The translations under genes and the position numbers were made by a program. DNA of 64,000 nucleotides from Candidatus Eisenbacteria bacterium (GTDB lineage Bacteria > Eisenbacteria > RBG-16-71-46 > SZUA-252), in assembly GCA_005893305.1 (NCBI GenBank), contig VBOZ01000025.1:1-64000 (forward strand). The letters are read 5' to 3'. Positions 13,645 through 35,219 of the stretch are shown here, in pieces (position 1 is the stretch's first letter; the number at the start of each line of letters is the position of its first letter). A model generated the notes under the pieces. The model worked only from the letters and a program-made list of their open reading frames with translations. It did no database searches and was not told the origin of the DNA.

Positions 13645-13845
13645 ATGCCGAAGATGAAGACGAACCGGGCCGCCGCGAAGCGGTTCAAGCGGACCGGCTC
13701 AGGAAAGATCAAGCGCGGGCACGCCTTCGCGCGGCACCACCTGGGACTCAAATCGCGCAAGCGGAAACGGCGCCTGGGCGCTTCGGCCATCGCGGAACCG
13801 ACCGAGCGCAAGCACATTCAAAAGCTCCTACCCTACGGCGGTTGA
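13645..13845 (+). CDS. rpmI: 50S ribosomal protein L35
   Basis: This 66-residue basic protein has the L35 pattern: [21 protein letters not shown], then RHHL and [10 protein letters not shown], ending [10 protein letters not shown]. The ATG at 13645 follows GAGGAG and matches the conserved family N-terminus. An in-frame ATG at 13603 would overlap infC and is rejected. It sits in the classical infC-rpmI-rplT order. Confidence 0.97.
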
Positions 13846-13880
13846 AGCGTTAGGCTTCGGCCGGCCACGAGGAACGTACC

Positions 13881-27756: not shown

Positions 27757-29502
27757 ATGCTCTCGTGGCTCTCGATCCAGGGGCTCGCTCTTGTGGAATC
27801 GGTCGAGCTCGCCTTCGACCCCGGCCTGAACGTCCTCACCGGTGAGACCGGCGCTGGAAAGTCGCTCATTCTAGGATCGATCGGGCTCCTCCTGGGCGAG
27901 CGCGCGGACGCGGCCTGGCTCCGCTCGGGCGAGGAGCGGGGCTCGGTCGACGGGACCTTCGAGCTCAAGGACAGGCCGGACTTAGTCGAGTCGCTGCTCC
28001 CGCTCGGCGTCGAGCCCGAGGATGGACGGCTCCTCCTTCGGCGCGAGATTCATCCCGACGGGAAGAGCCGGGCGTTCGTGAACGGAAGGCCCTCGCCCGC
28101 CTCCCTCCTCAAGACGGTGGGGGACCTGCTCGTCGACCTGCACGGCCAGCACGAGCACCAGCTGCTCCTAAGCCCGGACCGGCAAGCCGACTTCTTCGAC
28201 GCGTGGGCGGGTCTCCTGGGCGAGCGCCGCGCATTGGAAGAAGAGCGTAGCGCCCTCGTCGAGGAGCGCCAGCAGCTGCGCCGGGAGCGGGAGCGCTGGG
28301 AACGGGAGCGCGCCGACGAGGCGACCATCCGGGAGGACTACGAAGAGCTTCGTGTCGCGGCGCTCCATCCGGATGAGGAAGAGAACGCGAAGCGGGACCG
28401 CGCGCGCCTTCAGCATCGGGGGCGCCTCCTTCAGGGTTTCGCTGACGCCCGCCGAGGCCTCGCCGGCGAGGAGACCGGCGCCTCGGAGCGGCTGAAAGGG
28501 GCGGTCCGGGCAATCCGGGCCCTCGAGAGCCTGGACCCGGATACTTCGTCCCTCGCCGCGGAGGCCGAGCGGATCCTGGACGAGGTTGGCGAGCTCGATG
28601 GACGTCTCGAGCGGATGGAGGACGGCCTCTCGGAGGAGCCCGTGGACCTCGAGGCGCTCGAGGCGAGGCTGGACCTGCTCCACCGACTGAAGCGAAAGCA
28701 CCGGACCGACGTGCCGGGGCTCCTGACGCTCCGGGACACGCTCGAGACGAAGGTGCGGGACTTCGACCCCGCCGGGCGCGAGCTCACGCAGGCGGAGCGG
28801 GCCCACGACGATCGCCTCCAGAGGTTCGAGCTCAGGTTGGACGCGCTGATGACGCACCGAGGCGACCGCTTCGGGGCGTTCCAAGAGGACGTGGGCGCGC
28901 GGCTCTCGCGGGTCGGGTTCTCGCGCGCCGCGCTCCGGGTCCGCGCGGCGGAGGTCGACCGATCCCGGGCGGCGGTTGACCCCGCCGCGATCCCGACCCT
29001 AGAATTCGCGTTCCAACCGAATCCGGGCGAGGCGGAGCGCCCGCTCCGACGAATCGCGTCCGGGGGAGAGCTCTCGCGGGTGATGCTGGCAATCAAATCG
29101 TTGATGGCGGAGCGCGATCAGGTGGCTGTCCTCGTATTCGACGAGGTCGACCAGGGGATCGGCGGCGCCGCGGGAGAGGAAGTGGGCCGACTGCTTCGCA
29201 CGCTCGGTGAACGTCGTCAGGTGCTCTGCATCACGCATCTGCCCCTCATCGCGGCCTATGGCACGCGGCACTTCGAGGTGTCCAAGCAGACGCGGAAGGG
29301 GAGGACCACGTCCACGGTCCGGGCGCTGGCTCCCGACGAACGGGAGCTTGAGGTGGCACGATTGCTCGCGGGGGACCGCGTGACGCCGACGACGCGGAAG
29401 CAGGCGCGGGAGCTCCTCGACGCGGCCGGCGAGGCGCGCGCCGGTACGCCGACGCGCGTCCGGGGAGCGGGGGCGCGGGCCGCGGGGGCGCGGGGCGCAT
29501 GA
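27757..29502 (+). CDS. recN: DNA repair protein RecN
   Basis: RecN is an SMC-like ATPase for double-strand-break repair. The 581-residue product has Walker A GETGAGKS at 29-36, a RecN motif LVDLHGQHEHQLLL (about 128), and a long central coiled coil rich in Glu and Arg (about 150-370). The C-terminal ABC signature SGGELSRVMLAIK and Walker B VLVFDEVDQGIGG follow, and then the CITHLPLIAAYG motif. The last 25 residues are Arg/Ala/Gly-rich and non-conserved. The stop overlaps trpE. Confidence 0.95.
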   Translation: MLSWLSIQGLALVESVELAFDPGLNVLTGETGAGKSLILGSIGLLLGERADAAWLRSGEERGSVDGTFELKDRPDLVESLLPLGVEPEDGRLLLRREIHPDGKSRAFVNGRPSPASLLKTVGDLLVDLHGQHEHQLLLSPDRQADFFDAWAGLLGERRALEEERSALVEERQQLRRERERWERERADEATIREDYEELRVAALHPDEEENAKRDRARLQHRGRLLQGFADARRGLAGEETGASERLKGAVRAIRALESLDPDTSSLAAEAERILDEVGELDGRLERMEDGLSEEPVDLEALEARLDLLHRLKRKHRTDVPGLLTLRDTLETKVRDFDPAGRELTQAERAHDDRLQRFELRLDALMTHRGDRFGAFQEDVGARLSRVGFSRAALRVRAAEVDRSRAAVDPAAIPTLEFAFQPNPGEAERPLRRIASGGELSRVMLAIKSLMAERDQVAVLVFDEVDQGIGGAAGEEVGRLLRTLGERRQVLCITHLPLIAAYGTRHFEVSKQTRKGRTTSTVRALAPDERELEVARLLAGDRVTPTTRKQARELLDAAGEARAGTPTRVRGAGARAAGARGA

Positions 29503-30965
29503 TCGGTCCGACCCTGGAGGAATACCGGCGATACGCGCGCGATTCGAACCTGGTCCCGGTCACGCGGGAGATCCTGGCCGACTTTGACACGCCCGTCTCC
29601 GCCTTTGCCAAGCTGAATCGCGGGGATGCCTCGTTCCTCCTGGAGAGCCTGGAGGGAGGGGAGACGTGGGGCCGGTTCTCGATCCTCGGCTTTCGACCGT
29701 CGATCGAGTTCCGCTCCAAGGGAACGGCCATCGAGATCCACAAGACCCAGCGTCTGACCTCGGATGACCCTCTCGAAGCCCTCCGGTCCCTGCTGAGCGA
29801 GTTCCGTGCGGCCCCGGTTCCGGGGCTCCCGCGGTTCAGCGGCGGAGCCGTGGGACTGATCGGCTACGACTACGTCCGATTCCTAGAGAAGCTCCCGGCC
29901 CGGCTGAGCGACGATCTCAGCCATCCTGACCTCCACTTCGTCTTCCCCGACATCGTGCTGGTGTTCGACAATTTCCGCCATCGCCTCAGGTTCGTGGTTT
30001 GGAGCCGTCCCGATAAGGACCCGGACCGGACGTACCGGGAGGCGGTCGCGGCCATCGACGAAATGGTGGCGCGTCTTGGGGCCCCGCTCCCCGCGGCTCC
30101 TCCGACGCCTCATCTGAATGGCGATGTAAAGTTCACAAGCACCATGGGTGAAAAAGCTTACAAAGGCGCAGTATTGAAGGCCAAGGAACACATCCGGGCC
30201 GGAGACGTGGTCCAGGTCGTGCTCGCGCACCGGCTCGAGGCGGCTGTCCCGGTGGCCCCGTTCGACGTCTACAGGGCGCTCCGCGTTCTGAATCCGTCGC
30301 CCTATATGTTCTATCTACGGTTCGGCGAGCGGGCCGTGGCAGGCTCATCGCCCGAGATCCTGATCCGGGTCAGCGGGGATCGGATCTCGCTTCGACCCAT
30401 CGCGGGCACTCGTGCCCGGGGCGCCGACCCGGAGAAGGACGAGGCCCTGAGCCGGGAGCTTATGGCGAGCGAGAAGGACCGCGCGGAGCACGTGATGCTG
30501 GTCGACCTGGGGCGAAACGACGTCGGGCGGGTCGCGCGCATCGGAAGCGTGAAGACGACCGCCTTCATGACCCTGGAGCGCTACTCCCACGTGATGCACC
30601 TGGTGAGTCACGTGGAGGGGAAGCTCCGCGAAGGCCTCGGCCCCTTCGACGTACTGCGCGCCTGCTTTCCCGCGGGCACCGTCAGCGGAGCGCCCAAGAA
30701 GCGCGCGATGGAGCTGATCGAGGAGCTGGAGGGAGCGCGTCGCGGTGCCTACGCGGGCGCGATGGGCTACTTCGATTTTCACGGGAACGCCGATTTCTGC
30801 ATTACGATCCGGACCGCTGTCTTCGACGGCGGCCGCGTTCAGTGCGGGGTCGGGGCAGGGATCGTGGCCGATTCCGATCCGGACGAGGAATGGACGGAGA
30901 CGCAGAACAAGGGGCGCGCGGTCGAGGAGGCCGTTCGTCTCGCGGCTCGGGGGCTCGACACGTGA
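29499..30965 (+). CDS. trpE: Anthranilate synthase component I
   Basis: TrpE converts chorismate to anthranilate with ammonia from TrpG. The 488-residue product has [17 protein letters not shown] near residue 45, whose LLES is the tryptophan feedback site. The catalytic domain carries [77 protein letters not shown] and [16 protein letters not shown]. Its ATG overlaps the recN stop, so the operon has no leader peptide or attenuator in front of it. The stop overlaps trpG. Confidence 0.96.
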
Positions 30966-31555
30966 TCGTGATGATCGACAACTACGACTCCTTCACCTGG
31001 AACCTCGTGCAGTATTTCGGGGAGCTTGGCGACACGCCTGTCGTGAAGCGAAACGACGCGATCACGGTCGACGAGATCCTCGCGATGCGGCCGCGGGCGA
31101 TCGTCATCTCGCCGGGGCCGGGCCGTCCCGCCGCGGCGGGCGTGAGCTCAGACGTCGTGAAGCGCTGCTCCGGGAAGATCCCGATCCTCGGCGTCTGCCT
31201 GGGGCACCAGTGCATCGGAGAGGTCTTCGGCGGCAAGGTCGTCCAGGCGGAGCGCTTGGTGCATGGGAAGACCTCCGCCGTCATCCACACTGGGCGCGGG
31301 CTCTTCCTCGACATCGACAATCCGTTCCAGGCCACGCGGTATCACTCGTTGATCGTGGCACGCGAGGGTCTCCCGGACTCGCTGCAAGTGATGGCCTGGA
31401 CCCCGGAGAACGAGATCATGGCGCTCCGGCACAAGGAGCACGAGACGTGGGGAGTCCAATTTCATCCCGAATCGATCCTCACGACGGTCGGGAAGGACAT
31501 CCTCCGAAACTTCCTCCTCCTTCTGCCAGCACCCACGCCCGCCGGAGGGCGATGA
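30962..31555 (+). CDS. trpG: Anthranilate synthase component II (glutamine amidotransferase)
   Basis: TrpG supplies ammonia from glutamine. GTG 30962 overlaps the trpE stop and gives 197 residues; GTG 30968 or ATG 30971 are alternatives. The class I amidotransferase residues are clear: [24 protein letters not shown], the nucleophile in [27 protein letters not shown], and the His-Glu pair in [11 protein letters not shown]. The stop overlaps the trpD start (ATGA). Confidence 0.95.
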
Positions 31556-32564
31556 TCCGCGAGCTCCTCCCGCGGCTCCTGCGCGGAGATCGGCTCACCC
31601 GCGAGGAAGCGGCGGCGGCGATCGGCTCCATCGTCCGCGGTGAAAACGACAACACCGTGGTCGCGGCCTTCCTGGTCTGCTTGGCGCAGCGCGGAGAGTC
31701 GGACGAGGAGCTGACCGGTGGGGCCGAGGCGCTCCGCGCCGCGGCCGTTCCGTTCCCGGCGACGAAGGGGCCGATCCTCGATACCTGCGGCACGGGTGGG
31801 GACGGCTCGGTCAGGACCGAGATCGCGGACGCTCCAGCCTTCTCGTAGGCCATCGCGATCGCGGCCGGCTCGTACTGCTCTCGAAGAACGCCGGCGCTGG
31901 GCGACGAACGCTTCACCTCGGCGCCAAGATCGAGATCGGACCTCACGGCGCCGCGCGCGCGCTCGCCGAGACCGGCTTTTGCTTTCTCTTCGCGAGGCGG
32001 TTTCACCCGTCGATGCGAAACGTGGCTTTCGTGCGGGAATCGCTTGGCGTCCGAACCCTTTTCAACTGGCTCGGCCCCCTCGCCAATCCGGCGCGCGCGA
32101 CGCACCAACTGGTCGGTGTCCCGGAGCGGTCCCGGCTCGAGGCCATGGCGCGCGTCCTCCAGGCCCTGGGGGTCTCGCGGGCGCTCGTGGTCCACGGCGC
32201 CGGCGGCCTCGACGAGCTCTCCCTCGAGTCGGGCAATGAGGCGTTCCTTGTAGAGCAGGGGAGCGCGCCTCGCCCGGTATCGATCGAAGCCGCCGCGCTT
32301 GGGCTGGCGCCGGCTCCGGCCCCGGCGCTCGGCGGGGGAGACGCGGCACAGAACGCGGTCCACGTGCGCGCTGTCCTATCGGGGGAACGGGGCCCGCGAC
32401 GGGATGCGGTGGTCTTGAACGCGGCCGCGGCCCTCTGGATCGCCCAGCGGGCCTCGAGCCTGGAAGAGGGCGCGCGCCTCGCGGCGGAGTCGCTTGACTC
32501 GGGCGCGGCGAAGAGCACGCTTGAGCGTTACGTCGAGATTTCCCAGACGGCAGGGGAGGAATAG
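31552..32564 (+). pseudogene. trpD: Anthranilate phosphoribosyltransferase, disrupted by an inverted trpC segment
   Basis: The first 83 residues (31552 to about 31800) are normal TrpD, ending in the PRPP motif DTCGTGGDG. From 31799 to 31923 the DNA is a reverse-complement copy of trpC positions 32731-32855. It runs into a stop at 31846-31848. TrpD then resumes in another frame at about 31923 ([48 protein letters not shown]) and is complete to the TAG at 32562-32564. The lost part, about 42 residues, normally carries the GTFNIST and KHGNR substrate-binding motifs. The encoded protein cannot be active as written. It is either a real rearrangement or an assembly error. Confidence 0.9.
31799..31923 (-). 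repeat. 125-bp perfect inverted repeat, copy in trpD
   Basis: Read on the minus strand this copy encodes the TrpC peptide from [11 protein letters not shown] to SVLTEPS. It is identical base for base to 32731-32855. It begins at GGGAC within the TrpD GGDG codons and ends in CTCGGCG before the AKIEI codons. Native TrpD sequence probably shared short matches with trpC at both edges. Confidence 0.95.
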
Positions 32565-33382
32565 TGGACTTCCTTACCACCATGGCTCGCGAGCGGCGCG
32601 AGCTTGTTCTCCGCGAGGAGCGGCGCGTTTCCACGGCCGAGCTTCGCGATCAGGCCGAAATGCGAAGCGCCGACGTCCGGCCCTTCGGTCAGGCGCTCCG
32701 CCGCGGCGACCAGGGCGGCGTCCGGGCGATCGCCGAGGTGAAGCGTTCGTCGCCCAGCGCCGGCGTTCTTCGAGAGCAGTACGAGCCGGCCGCGATCGCG
32801 ATGGCCTACGAGAAGGCTGGAGCGTCCGCGATCTCGGTCCTGACCGAGCCGTCCCGCTTCGGCGGGGCCATCGAGCACCTCTCGCGGGTGCGGGATCGCG
32901 TTCAGCTTCCGGTCTTGCTCAAAGATTTCGTGATCCACGAGCGCCAACTCTATCAGGCGCGCGCGGCGGGCGCCGACGCGGTGCTGCTGATCGTGGCCCT
33001 CCTGGACTCCACCCAGCTTCTCGATTACGCGTCCCTCGCGCGCGAGCTCTCGCTGGAGCCCTTTCTTGAGATCCACGAGGAGCGCGAGCTGGAGCGCGCG
33101 CTCCTGGTCCCCGGGGCTGGAATCGGCGTCAACAACCGGGACTTGCGCTCCCTGGAGATCCGCCAAGGCTGGGCCGAGCGGATCATCCCTAAGATTCCCG
33201 CCGACCGGCTCCGCGTGGCGGAGAGCGGATACCGCGAGCCTGCCGAGCTGGAGGCCCTGGGCCGCGCCGGGGCTGACGCGGTCCTGGTCGGGGAGAGCCT
33301 TCTCAGGTCGGAGTCCCCGGGGGAAGCGCTCCGCGCGCTCCTCGGAGGGAACGGGGCATCGAAGGGGGACCGAAAGGAATGA
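32564..33382 (+). CDS. trpC: Indole-3-glycerol phosphate synthase
   Basis: TrpC closes the indole ring from CdRP. The 272-residue protein has the TIM-barrel motifs [13 protein letters not shown] (catalytic Lys and substrate phosphate site), VLTEPSRFGGAIEHL, LPVLLKDFVIHERQLYQARAAGADAVLLI, FLEIHEEREL, GVNNRDLRSLEI, VAESGYREPAEL and ADAVLVGESLLRS. It is intact. GTG 32564 overlaps the trpD stop, and AGGGGAGGA lies just before it. Confidence 0.96.
   Translation: MDFLTTMARERRELVLREERRVSTAELRDQAEMRSADVRPFGQALRRGDQGGVRAIAEVKRSSPSAGVLREQYEPAAIAMAYEKAGASAISVLTEPSRFGGAIEHLSRVRDRVQLPVLLKDFVIHERQLYQARAAGADAVLLIVALLDSTQLLDYASLARELSLEPFLEIHEERELERALLVPGAGIGVNNRDLRSLEIRQGWAERIIPKIPADRLRVAESGYREPAELEALGRAGADAVLVGESLLRSESPGEALRALLGGNGASKGDRKE
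32731..32855 (+). repeat. 125-bp perfect inverted repeat, native copy in trpC
   Basis: This is the in-frame TrpC coding segment that includes the conserved [10 protein letters not shown] motif, so it is the source copy. The two arms are separated by 807 bases. A trpD-trpC transcript could pair them into a 125-bp RNA duplex. Confidence 0.95.
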
Positions 33383-34011
33383 GAACTCGGATCAAGATCT
33401 GCGGCATCACCCGCGCCGAGGATGCGCGGATGGCCCTCGACGCCGGAGCGGATTATGTCGGCCTGGTCTTGACGAAGAGTCCCCGCCAGCTATCCCTCGA
33501 GCAGGCGAAGGCGATCCGCGCCGCTCTTCCGGCGGAGGCGGCCGTCGTCGGCGTGTTCGCCGAAGAGCGCCCGGATCAGGTGGCCCCGTTCGCGCGGGAC
33601 CTCGCGCTTCACGCGGTCCAGGTAGCCGGGTGGCTCGACGCGAGCCCCGACATCTCGTGCGAGGTCTGGCACGTGCTCCGCGGCGCCGAGCTTCCGGACC
33701 CAGCGCAGCTCCCCATGATCCCACTGCGCACGTACCTTCTCGACGCCCATGACCGGACACTCGCGGGGGGTACCGGGAAGCGCTCGGACTGGGCCTGGGC
33801 CAAGCTCTGCGTCCAGCACGGCCGGCGCCTCTTCGTGGCGGGAGGTTTGAGCGCCGGGAACGTGGAGTCGCTGATCTTCCAGGTTCGGCCCTTTGGCGTG
33901 GACGCATCGAGCGGCCTCGAATCCGAGGTCGGGAAGAAGAGCCTGGAGAAGGTGCGGGCGTTCGTGGAGCGGATCCACGAAGCAGACCGGACCCGCCCGA
34001 AGAGCTCGTGA
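33379..34011 (+). CDS. trpF: Phosphoribosylanthranilate isomerase
   Basis: TrpF performs the Amadori rearrangement PRA to CdRP. The 210-residue barrel has [26 protein letters not shown] with the catalytic Cys, [17 protein letters not shown] (the usual VQLHG is altered), [12 protein letters not shown], and [24 protein letters not shown] with the catalytic Asp. The ATG overlaps trpC and the TGA overlaps trpB. Confidence 0.93.
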
Positions 34012-35219
34012 GCGCCGTGAAGCAGAGCGTCGCGCCTACGCCGGGGCGCTTTGGCGAGTTCGGCGGCGTCTACGTCCCGGAAACGCTGATGACGCCGGTG
34101 CTCGAGCTGGCCGCCGCCTACGAGGCGGCCCATCGCGATCCGGCGTTCGGGACCGAGCTGGAGCGCGAGCTCCGCGACTTCGCCGGCAGGCCGACACCCC
34201 TCCAGCCTGCCCCACGCTTCGCGGAGGCGTCGGGTCTCTCGCGCGTCTACCTGAAGCGGGAAGATCTCCTCCATACGGGCGCCCACAAGATCAACAACGC
34301 GATCGGCCAAGCGCTGCTCGCGCGCCGGATGGGGAAGTCCCGCGTGATCGCGGAAACGGGCGCGGGGCAGCACGGTGTCGCGACCGCGACCGTGTGCGCG
34401 CGCTACGGCCTCGAGTGCGTCGTGTACATGGGCGAGGTCGACATGGAGCGCCAGCGGCCCAACGTCGAGCGGATGAAGCTGCTGGGCGCCGAGGTGCGGG
34501 CCGTCGGCTCGGGGAGCCGCACCCTCAAGGACGCGATCAACGAGGCGATGCGGGACTGGTCGGCCAGCGTCCGCACCACGCACTATCTTCTGGGCTCCGT
34601 CCTCGGCCCGCATCCCTACCCGACCATGGTGCGTGATTTCCAGACCGTGATCGGACGCGAGGCCCGCGCTCAGATCGTGGAGCGTGAGAAGCGGCTGCCC
34701 GATCTACTCGTCGCCTGCGTCGGGGGCGGGAGCAACTCGATCGGGCTCTTCCACCCGTTCCTGGGGGACGAGAGCGTCGCGATGGTGGGTGTCGAAGCGG
34801 GTGGAGAGGGGATCGCGTCGCGACGCCACGCCGCGCGATTCGCCGAGCCCGCCACCGGCGTGCTGCATGGAACCCGCTCGCTCGTGCTTCAGGATTCGGC
34901 CGGGCAGGTGAGGGAGACCCACTCGATCTCGGCAGGGCTGGATTATCCAGCCGTGGGTCCCGAGCACGCCGCGCTCGCCGCCGCGGGCAGGGTGCGGTAC
35001 GACTCGGTCACCGATGACGAGGCTCTGGACGCGTTCGATCTCCTCGCTCGTAGGGAAGGGATCCTCCCCGCGCTGGAATCGGCCCACGCGGTCGCGTACG
35101 TCGCGCGGGAGGGGAGGCGGGGCAAGATCGACCGGCAGGCGCTTCTGGTGATCAACCTCTCGGGCCGCGGCGACAAGGACCTTGGAGTCGTCGCGGAGGC
35201 CCGGTCGCGGCGGCGCTAG
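34008..35219 (+). CDS. trpB: Tryptophan synthase beta chain
   Basis: TrpB joins indole and serine using pyridoxal phosphate. The 403-residue product has [34 protein letters not shown] with the PLP-binding Lys, [45 protein letters not shown], and [10 protein letters not shown]. It is TrpB1-type and full length. No trpA follows. The next gene is convergent and its stop overlaps this one, so the alpha subunit must be elsewhere or absent. Confidence 0.96.

Follow-up and report, generated by a model that had tools for sequence, protein, structure and literature searches.

In the window, i.e., the whole 64,000-nt stretch of Candidatus Eisenbacteria DNA that was analysed, the assembled trpD gene contains an exact, sharp-edged inverted copy of part of trpC. 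The copy comprises 125 nt and replaces 138 nt of native trpD; the reading frame is broken, and no second trpD is present in the assembly. From this anatomy we infer a template-switch mechanism operating in the cell. That a single inverted template-switch mutation hit trpD in the sampled lineage in vivo is given an even chance here, and an artefact of library preparation or assembly is the main competing explanation.

Structure of the trpD lesion

The trp genes of the window and the parts of the lesion are as follows.

29499..30965, + strand: trpE, intact (PF00425/PF04715)
30962..31555, + strand: trpG, intact, presumed start at GTG 30962 (PF00117)
31552..31848, + strand: trpD front part in the assembly, ended by TAG after 98 codons (translation; PF02885, E 2.8e-16; 57–76% identical to family TrpD across the initial 83 residues)
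31799..31806, + strand: left microhomology GGGACGGC, with 7–11 nt common to the donor and the native trpD of most relatives
31799..31923, + strand: acceptor arm, the inverted trpC copy in place of ~138 nt of conserved trpD core (125/125 identity; relatives 135 nt vs. 122 nt in the window)
31917..31923, + strand: right microhomology CTCGGCG, with 4–7 nt common to the donor and native trpD in 6/7 relatives
31923..32564, + strand: rear part of trpD, shifted to another frame by a net −13 nt (PF00591 positions 59–252, E 2.8e-47; 60–69% identity to family TrpD)
32564..33382, + strand: trpC, intact (PF00218)
32731..32855, + strand: donor arm, native trpC codons (41 residues) within a full-length IGPS (PF00218, E 1.2e-73)
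33379..34011, + strand: trpF, intact (PF00697)
34008..35219, + strand: trpB, intact (PF00291)

Direct comparison within the window confirmed the claim of an earlier note that a perfect 125-bp inverted trpC copy lies inside trpD. Positions 31799–31923 equal the reverse complement of 32731–32855 at 125 of 125 bases, with 807 nt between the two arms, and the match ends abruptly on both sides, where the bases beyond agree only at chance level. Such a pair is far above chance, since the next-longest exact inverted pairs within 5 kb are only 34 and 23 nt in 2.20 Mb (80%) of the same assembly. No partly decayed older inverted copies of note were found in this assembly sample. The perfect identity over 125 bases bounds divergence only to about 2%, which leaves room for a real event of some age.

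The extent of the loss was obtained from eight aligned loci, which represent seven distinct genomes (locus L003 duplicates L053 and matches G002). From the codon ending at 31800 to the codon starting at 31923, all eight loci have 135 nt, compared with 122 nt in the window. By alignment to these relatives, the 125-nt copy stands for 138 nt of native trpD, a net change of −13 nt, and its flanks are collinear with trpD on both sides. The missing stretch is the conserved core, running from NIST through KHGNRSVSS to GSADVLEALG. Translation places an in-frame TAG inside the inverted copy, ending the front part after 98 codons, and the rear part lies in another frame because 13 nt were lost. The trpD of the window is not the single open frame with GTGGDG, NIST, and KHGNR expected of a functional TrpD. 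The earlier note had put the replacement at about 42 codons (~126 bases), including NIST and KHGNR; the motif loss stands, but the relatives imply ~138 nt. Its frame shift is correct by coincidence, as −13 nt gives the same shift as the 126-base figure.

In every relative that carries the site (G001–G005, G007, G008, and locus L003), trpD is intact, indicating that the broken gene is the derived state; the alignment with related TrpD that had been proposed shows the lesion in none of the relatives. The partial TrpD of G006 was considered as another broken case and rejected: the gene is cut by the contig end, and the site itself is intact there.

Both edges of the copy carry short sequences shared by the donor and native trpD, for which the trpD of relatives stands in for the genome's own replaced sequence. 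At the left edge, GGGACGG(C) or more is shared, amounting to at least 7 nt in 6/7 relatives. At the right edge, the match ranges from GGCG to CTCGGCG, with 7 nt in two of the seven relatives and 4 nt in four. By chance, two randomly paired edges would share at least 7 nt with a probability of ~0.002. Native trpD of the relatives therefore upholds the short trpD/trpC matches (GGGACGGC and CTCGGCG) that had been proposed for the two edges. Two microhomology edges flanking a single copy indicate that the copying was guided by annealing; it would have led out of trpD, along trpC, and back again.

Consequences for the trp pathway

Apart from trpD, the trp pathway is complete (trpE, G, C, F, B, and A, with trpA on contig C17), and no other lesion was found in it. 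A search of the rest of the assembly, as had been recommended, revealed neither a second trpD nor the native trpD core. The other PF00591 match was rejected as a second trpD, being a pyrimidine-nucleoside phosphorylase-like gene. The inactivation of trpD is thus borne out for the assembly, where the gene is broken and has no second copy. Taken literally, the assembly would describe a strain unable to make tryptophan from anthranilate. If the lesion is an artefact, an auxotrophy call from such a draft genome needs a read check.

A survey of frame breaks against relatives showed that most apparent breaks are gene boundaries or N gaps, with lpxD as the one clear further break. In the sole lpxD of the assembly, the gene is interrupted by a frame shift that looks like a single-base loss (L104 near 8041; G000:C8 near 68038).

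Origin of the inverted copy

An inverted template switch could have produced the lesion in a single event. A growing strand whose 3′ end lay at an edge of the trpD core would pair, over ~7–8 nt, with trpC, some 1 kb distant in the same molecule; the geometry fits a minus-strand end that folded back onto trpC after copying it. The strand would then copy 125 nt of trpC and re-anneal to trpD through the second short shared sequence, skipping 138 nt of native DNA. The product would be a trpD stopping after 98 codons, from which no anthranilate phosphoribosyltransferase would be made. The features that mark inverted template switches are indeed present, i.e., a nearby reverse-complement segment, collinear replacement, and microhomology at both switch points.

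The mutation type is already known. In bacteria, Harms et al. (PNAS, 2016) reportedly described short-patch substitution, in which an ectopic segment of the same genome, joined through microhomology, replaces native DNA; judged by its title, this is the closest bacterial description of the trpD case. Reverse-complement copies left by template switching are documented, and in replication the out-and-back form is the normal one (PMC8794818). As in short inverted template switches, both of the four-switch-point model and of the bacterial quasipalindrome type, a nearby reverse-complement copy replaces native DNA in trpD, with microhomology and collinear flanks (PMC8794818, PMC7954356). Yet, an important difference lies in scale: the trpD copy of 125 nt came from 807 nt away, whereas ape template-switch fragments have a median of 12 nt and a maximum of 128 nt (PMC7954356). 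The trpD case thus sits at the long end of known sizes, and long switches at ~1 kb are rare among known template switches. The lesion works like the short inverted template-switch class, of which it is a member if it arose in vivo.

The earlier note had named two possibilities, replacement by template switching and a joining error of the assembly. The double junction, the microhomology edges, and the collinear replacement fit the former; the latter belongs to the artefact explanation, to which we assign slightly less than an even chance. Here, the organism's real trpD would be normal, and the copy would stem either from a chimeric library molecule, made by microhomology-primed fold-back (at the end-repair, PCR, or whole-genome amplification stage), or from a wrong local join; either would have supplied the trpC piece where the high-GC, highly conserved trpD core was not covered. 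Several features are in line with this. The draft is gapped (36 N runs in 1.80 Mb); lpxD is a second frame-broken single-copy gene, so that local consensus errors may exist; the rest of the trp pathway is intact; and no part of trpD is more strongly conserved than the site of the lesion, which borders the stretch with the highest GC content in the profile (0.70–0.73). Moreover, the 125-nt copy is just below the longest exact repeat in the assembly sample (127 nt), a maximum that suggests a read-length or k-mer ceiling near the copy length. Joins on 7–8 nt are shorter than the overlaps assemblers normally use, which argues against a wrong join, and the window contains no N; the site is internal to a 73,489-base scaffold, away from any contig edge. 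Among 126 contig ends and gap edges, none shows a fold-back copy above background, which speaks against a library rich in chimeras. Two assembler-based ideas were discarded: inability to pass a 125-nt repeat, as exact repeats of 119 nt within and 127 nt between stretches exist, and a single assembler k read from contig-end overlaps, whose lengths vary (82, 79, 54, 49, 44, and 35).

Known chimeras resemble the trpD copy in part. Those of MDA are inverted, join sites less than 10 kb apart, and are primed by 2–21 complementary nt (Lasken and Stockwell 2007, PMC1855051), and sonicated libraries also yield inverted chimeras, with an inverted copy between short inverted repeats (PDSM model, PMC10908179). 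However, MDA chimeras are characterised as single joins with an intervening deletion (PMC1855051), whereas the trpD copy has two junctions and returns to the original locus; it would be unusual for two such junctions, out and back within 125 nt, to end up as the consensus. The chimeras of sonicated libraries are infrequent and sit at the ends of reads (PMC10908179), whereas the trpD copy is an internal consensus segment.

Two further explanations fare much worse. A true second trpD in the unassembled 4% of the genome, leaving the broken copy as a redundant pseudogene, is compatible with the assembly completeness of 95.8% but very improbable: G034 is the only one of 38 relatives with a second full-length match on the scale of trpD, and the usual second PF00591 match in relatives has a score similar to that of this genome's pyrimidine-nucleoside phosphorylase-like gene. 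We give still less credence to a mobile or structural element (insertion sequence ends, an invertible switch, a regulatory hairpin, or an antisense RNA) as the source of the inverted pair. As the earlier note proposed, a trpD–trpC mRNA could form a long hairpin, and the 125-bp pair with its 807-nt loop is predicted in silico to fold as a full, perfect stem. This predicted stem is a direct consequence of the repeat and does not speak for a function; a regulatory role for the inverted pair is unsupported. Furthermore, no transposase or recombinase lies between or beside the arms, the interval consisting of the trpD rear part and the beginning of trpC; one of the arms is simply trpC coding sequence; flipping the interval could not restore trpD, whose core is missing from the assembly; and the inverted pair occurs in no relative.

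For the template switch in the cell speak the sharp, perfect copy, the double junction, the absent native core, the derived state, a second event described below, and the lack of fold-backs; against it stand the gapped draft, the frame-broken lpxD, the repeat ceiling, the rare size, the lone trp lesion, and the lack of decayed copies. Collectively, these points leave the in vivo origin evenly poised. A mutator explanation was rejected, as RecJ and two MutS homologues were found in the genome. If real, the lesion illustrates cleanly how one out-and-back template switch turned a gene into a pseudogene in nature, with donor, edges, and direction all readable; if it is an artefact, draft genomes can carry convincing template-switch footprints.

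A second inverted copy and other repeats

A smaller event is present on contig C26, where L088 12696–12729 equals the reverse complement of 13822–13855 over 34 nt exactly, 1,092 nt apart, extending to 38 nt with one mismatch. The donor is an SLBB polysaccharide-export gene and the acceptor a glycosyltransferase gene. This direction is fixed because the SLBB-protein gene of G003 has the donor sequence natively (the proteins are 75% identical there) and the glycosyltransferase gene departs from its relatives exactly at the copy. Like the trpD copy, that of C26 is microhomology-edged. The glycosyltransferase gene is also shortened beside the copy, which keeps it in frame, with changes estimated at about +19 and −28 nt from the alignment with G002. 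The same anatomy in the two events suggests one common process. It is unlikely that the lineage repeatedly fixes inverted substitutions from ~1 kb away, a longer range than usual, with two cases of which one truly cost trpD, so that outside tryptophan would be needed.

Other repeats were also observed in the assembly. A perfect 22-nt palindrome, CAACATGCCCCGGGGCATGTTG, occurs in pairs ~650–730 nt apart at two places (L216 8943 and 9671; L197 11336 and 11989). Two small elements with inverted ends containing GGGATCAACC lie at L082 3946–4136 and L201 19506–19707, with 147–148 nt between the exact arms, and possibly form a short repeat family. Finally, the end of the window's scaffold (L151, G000:C25 64001–73489) contains many direct repeats of 30–60 nt, some of which are common to the end of contig C30; the assembly probably broke here at a gene for a repeat-rich protein.
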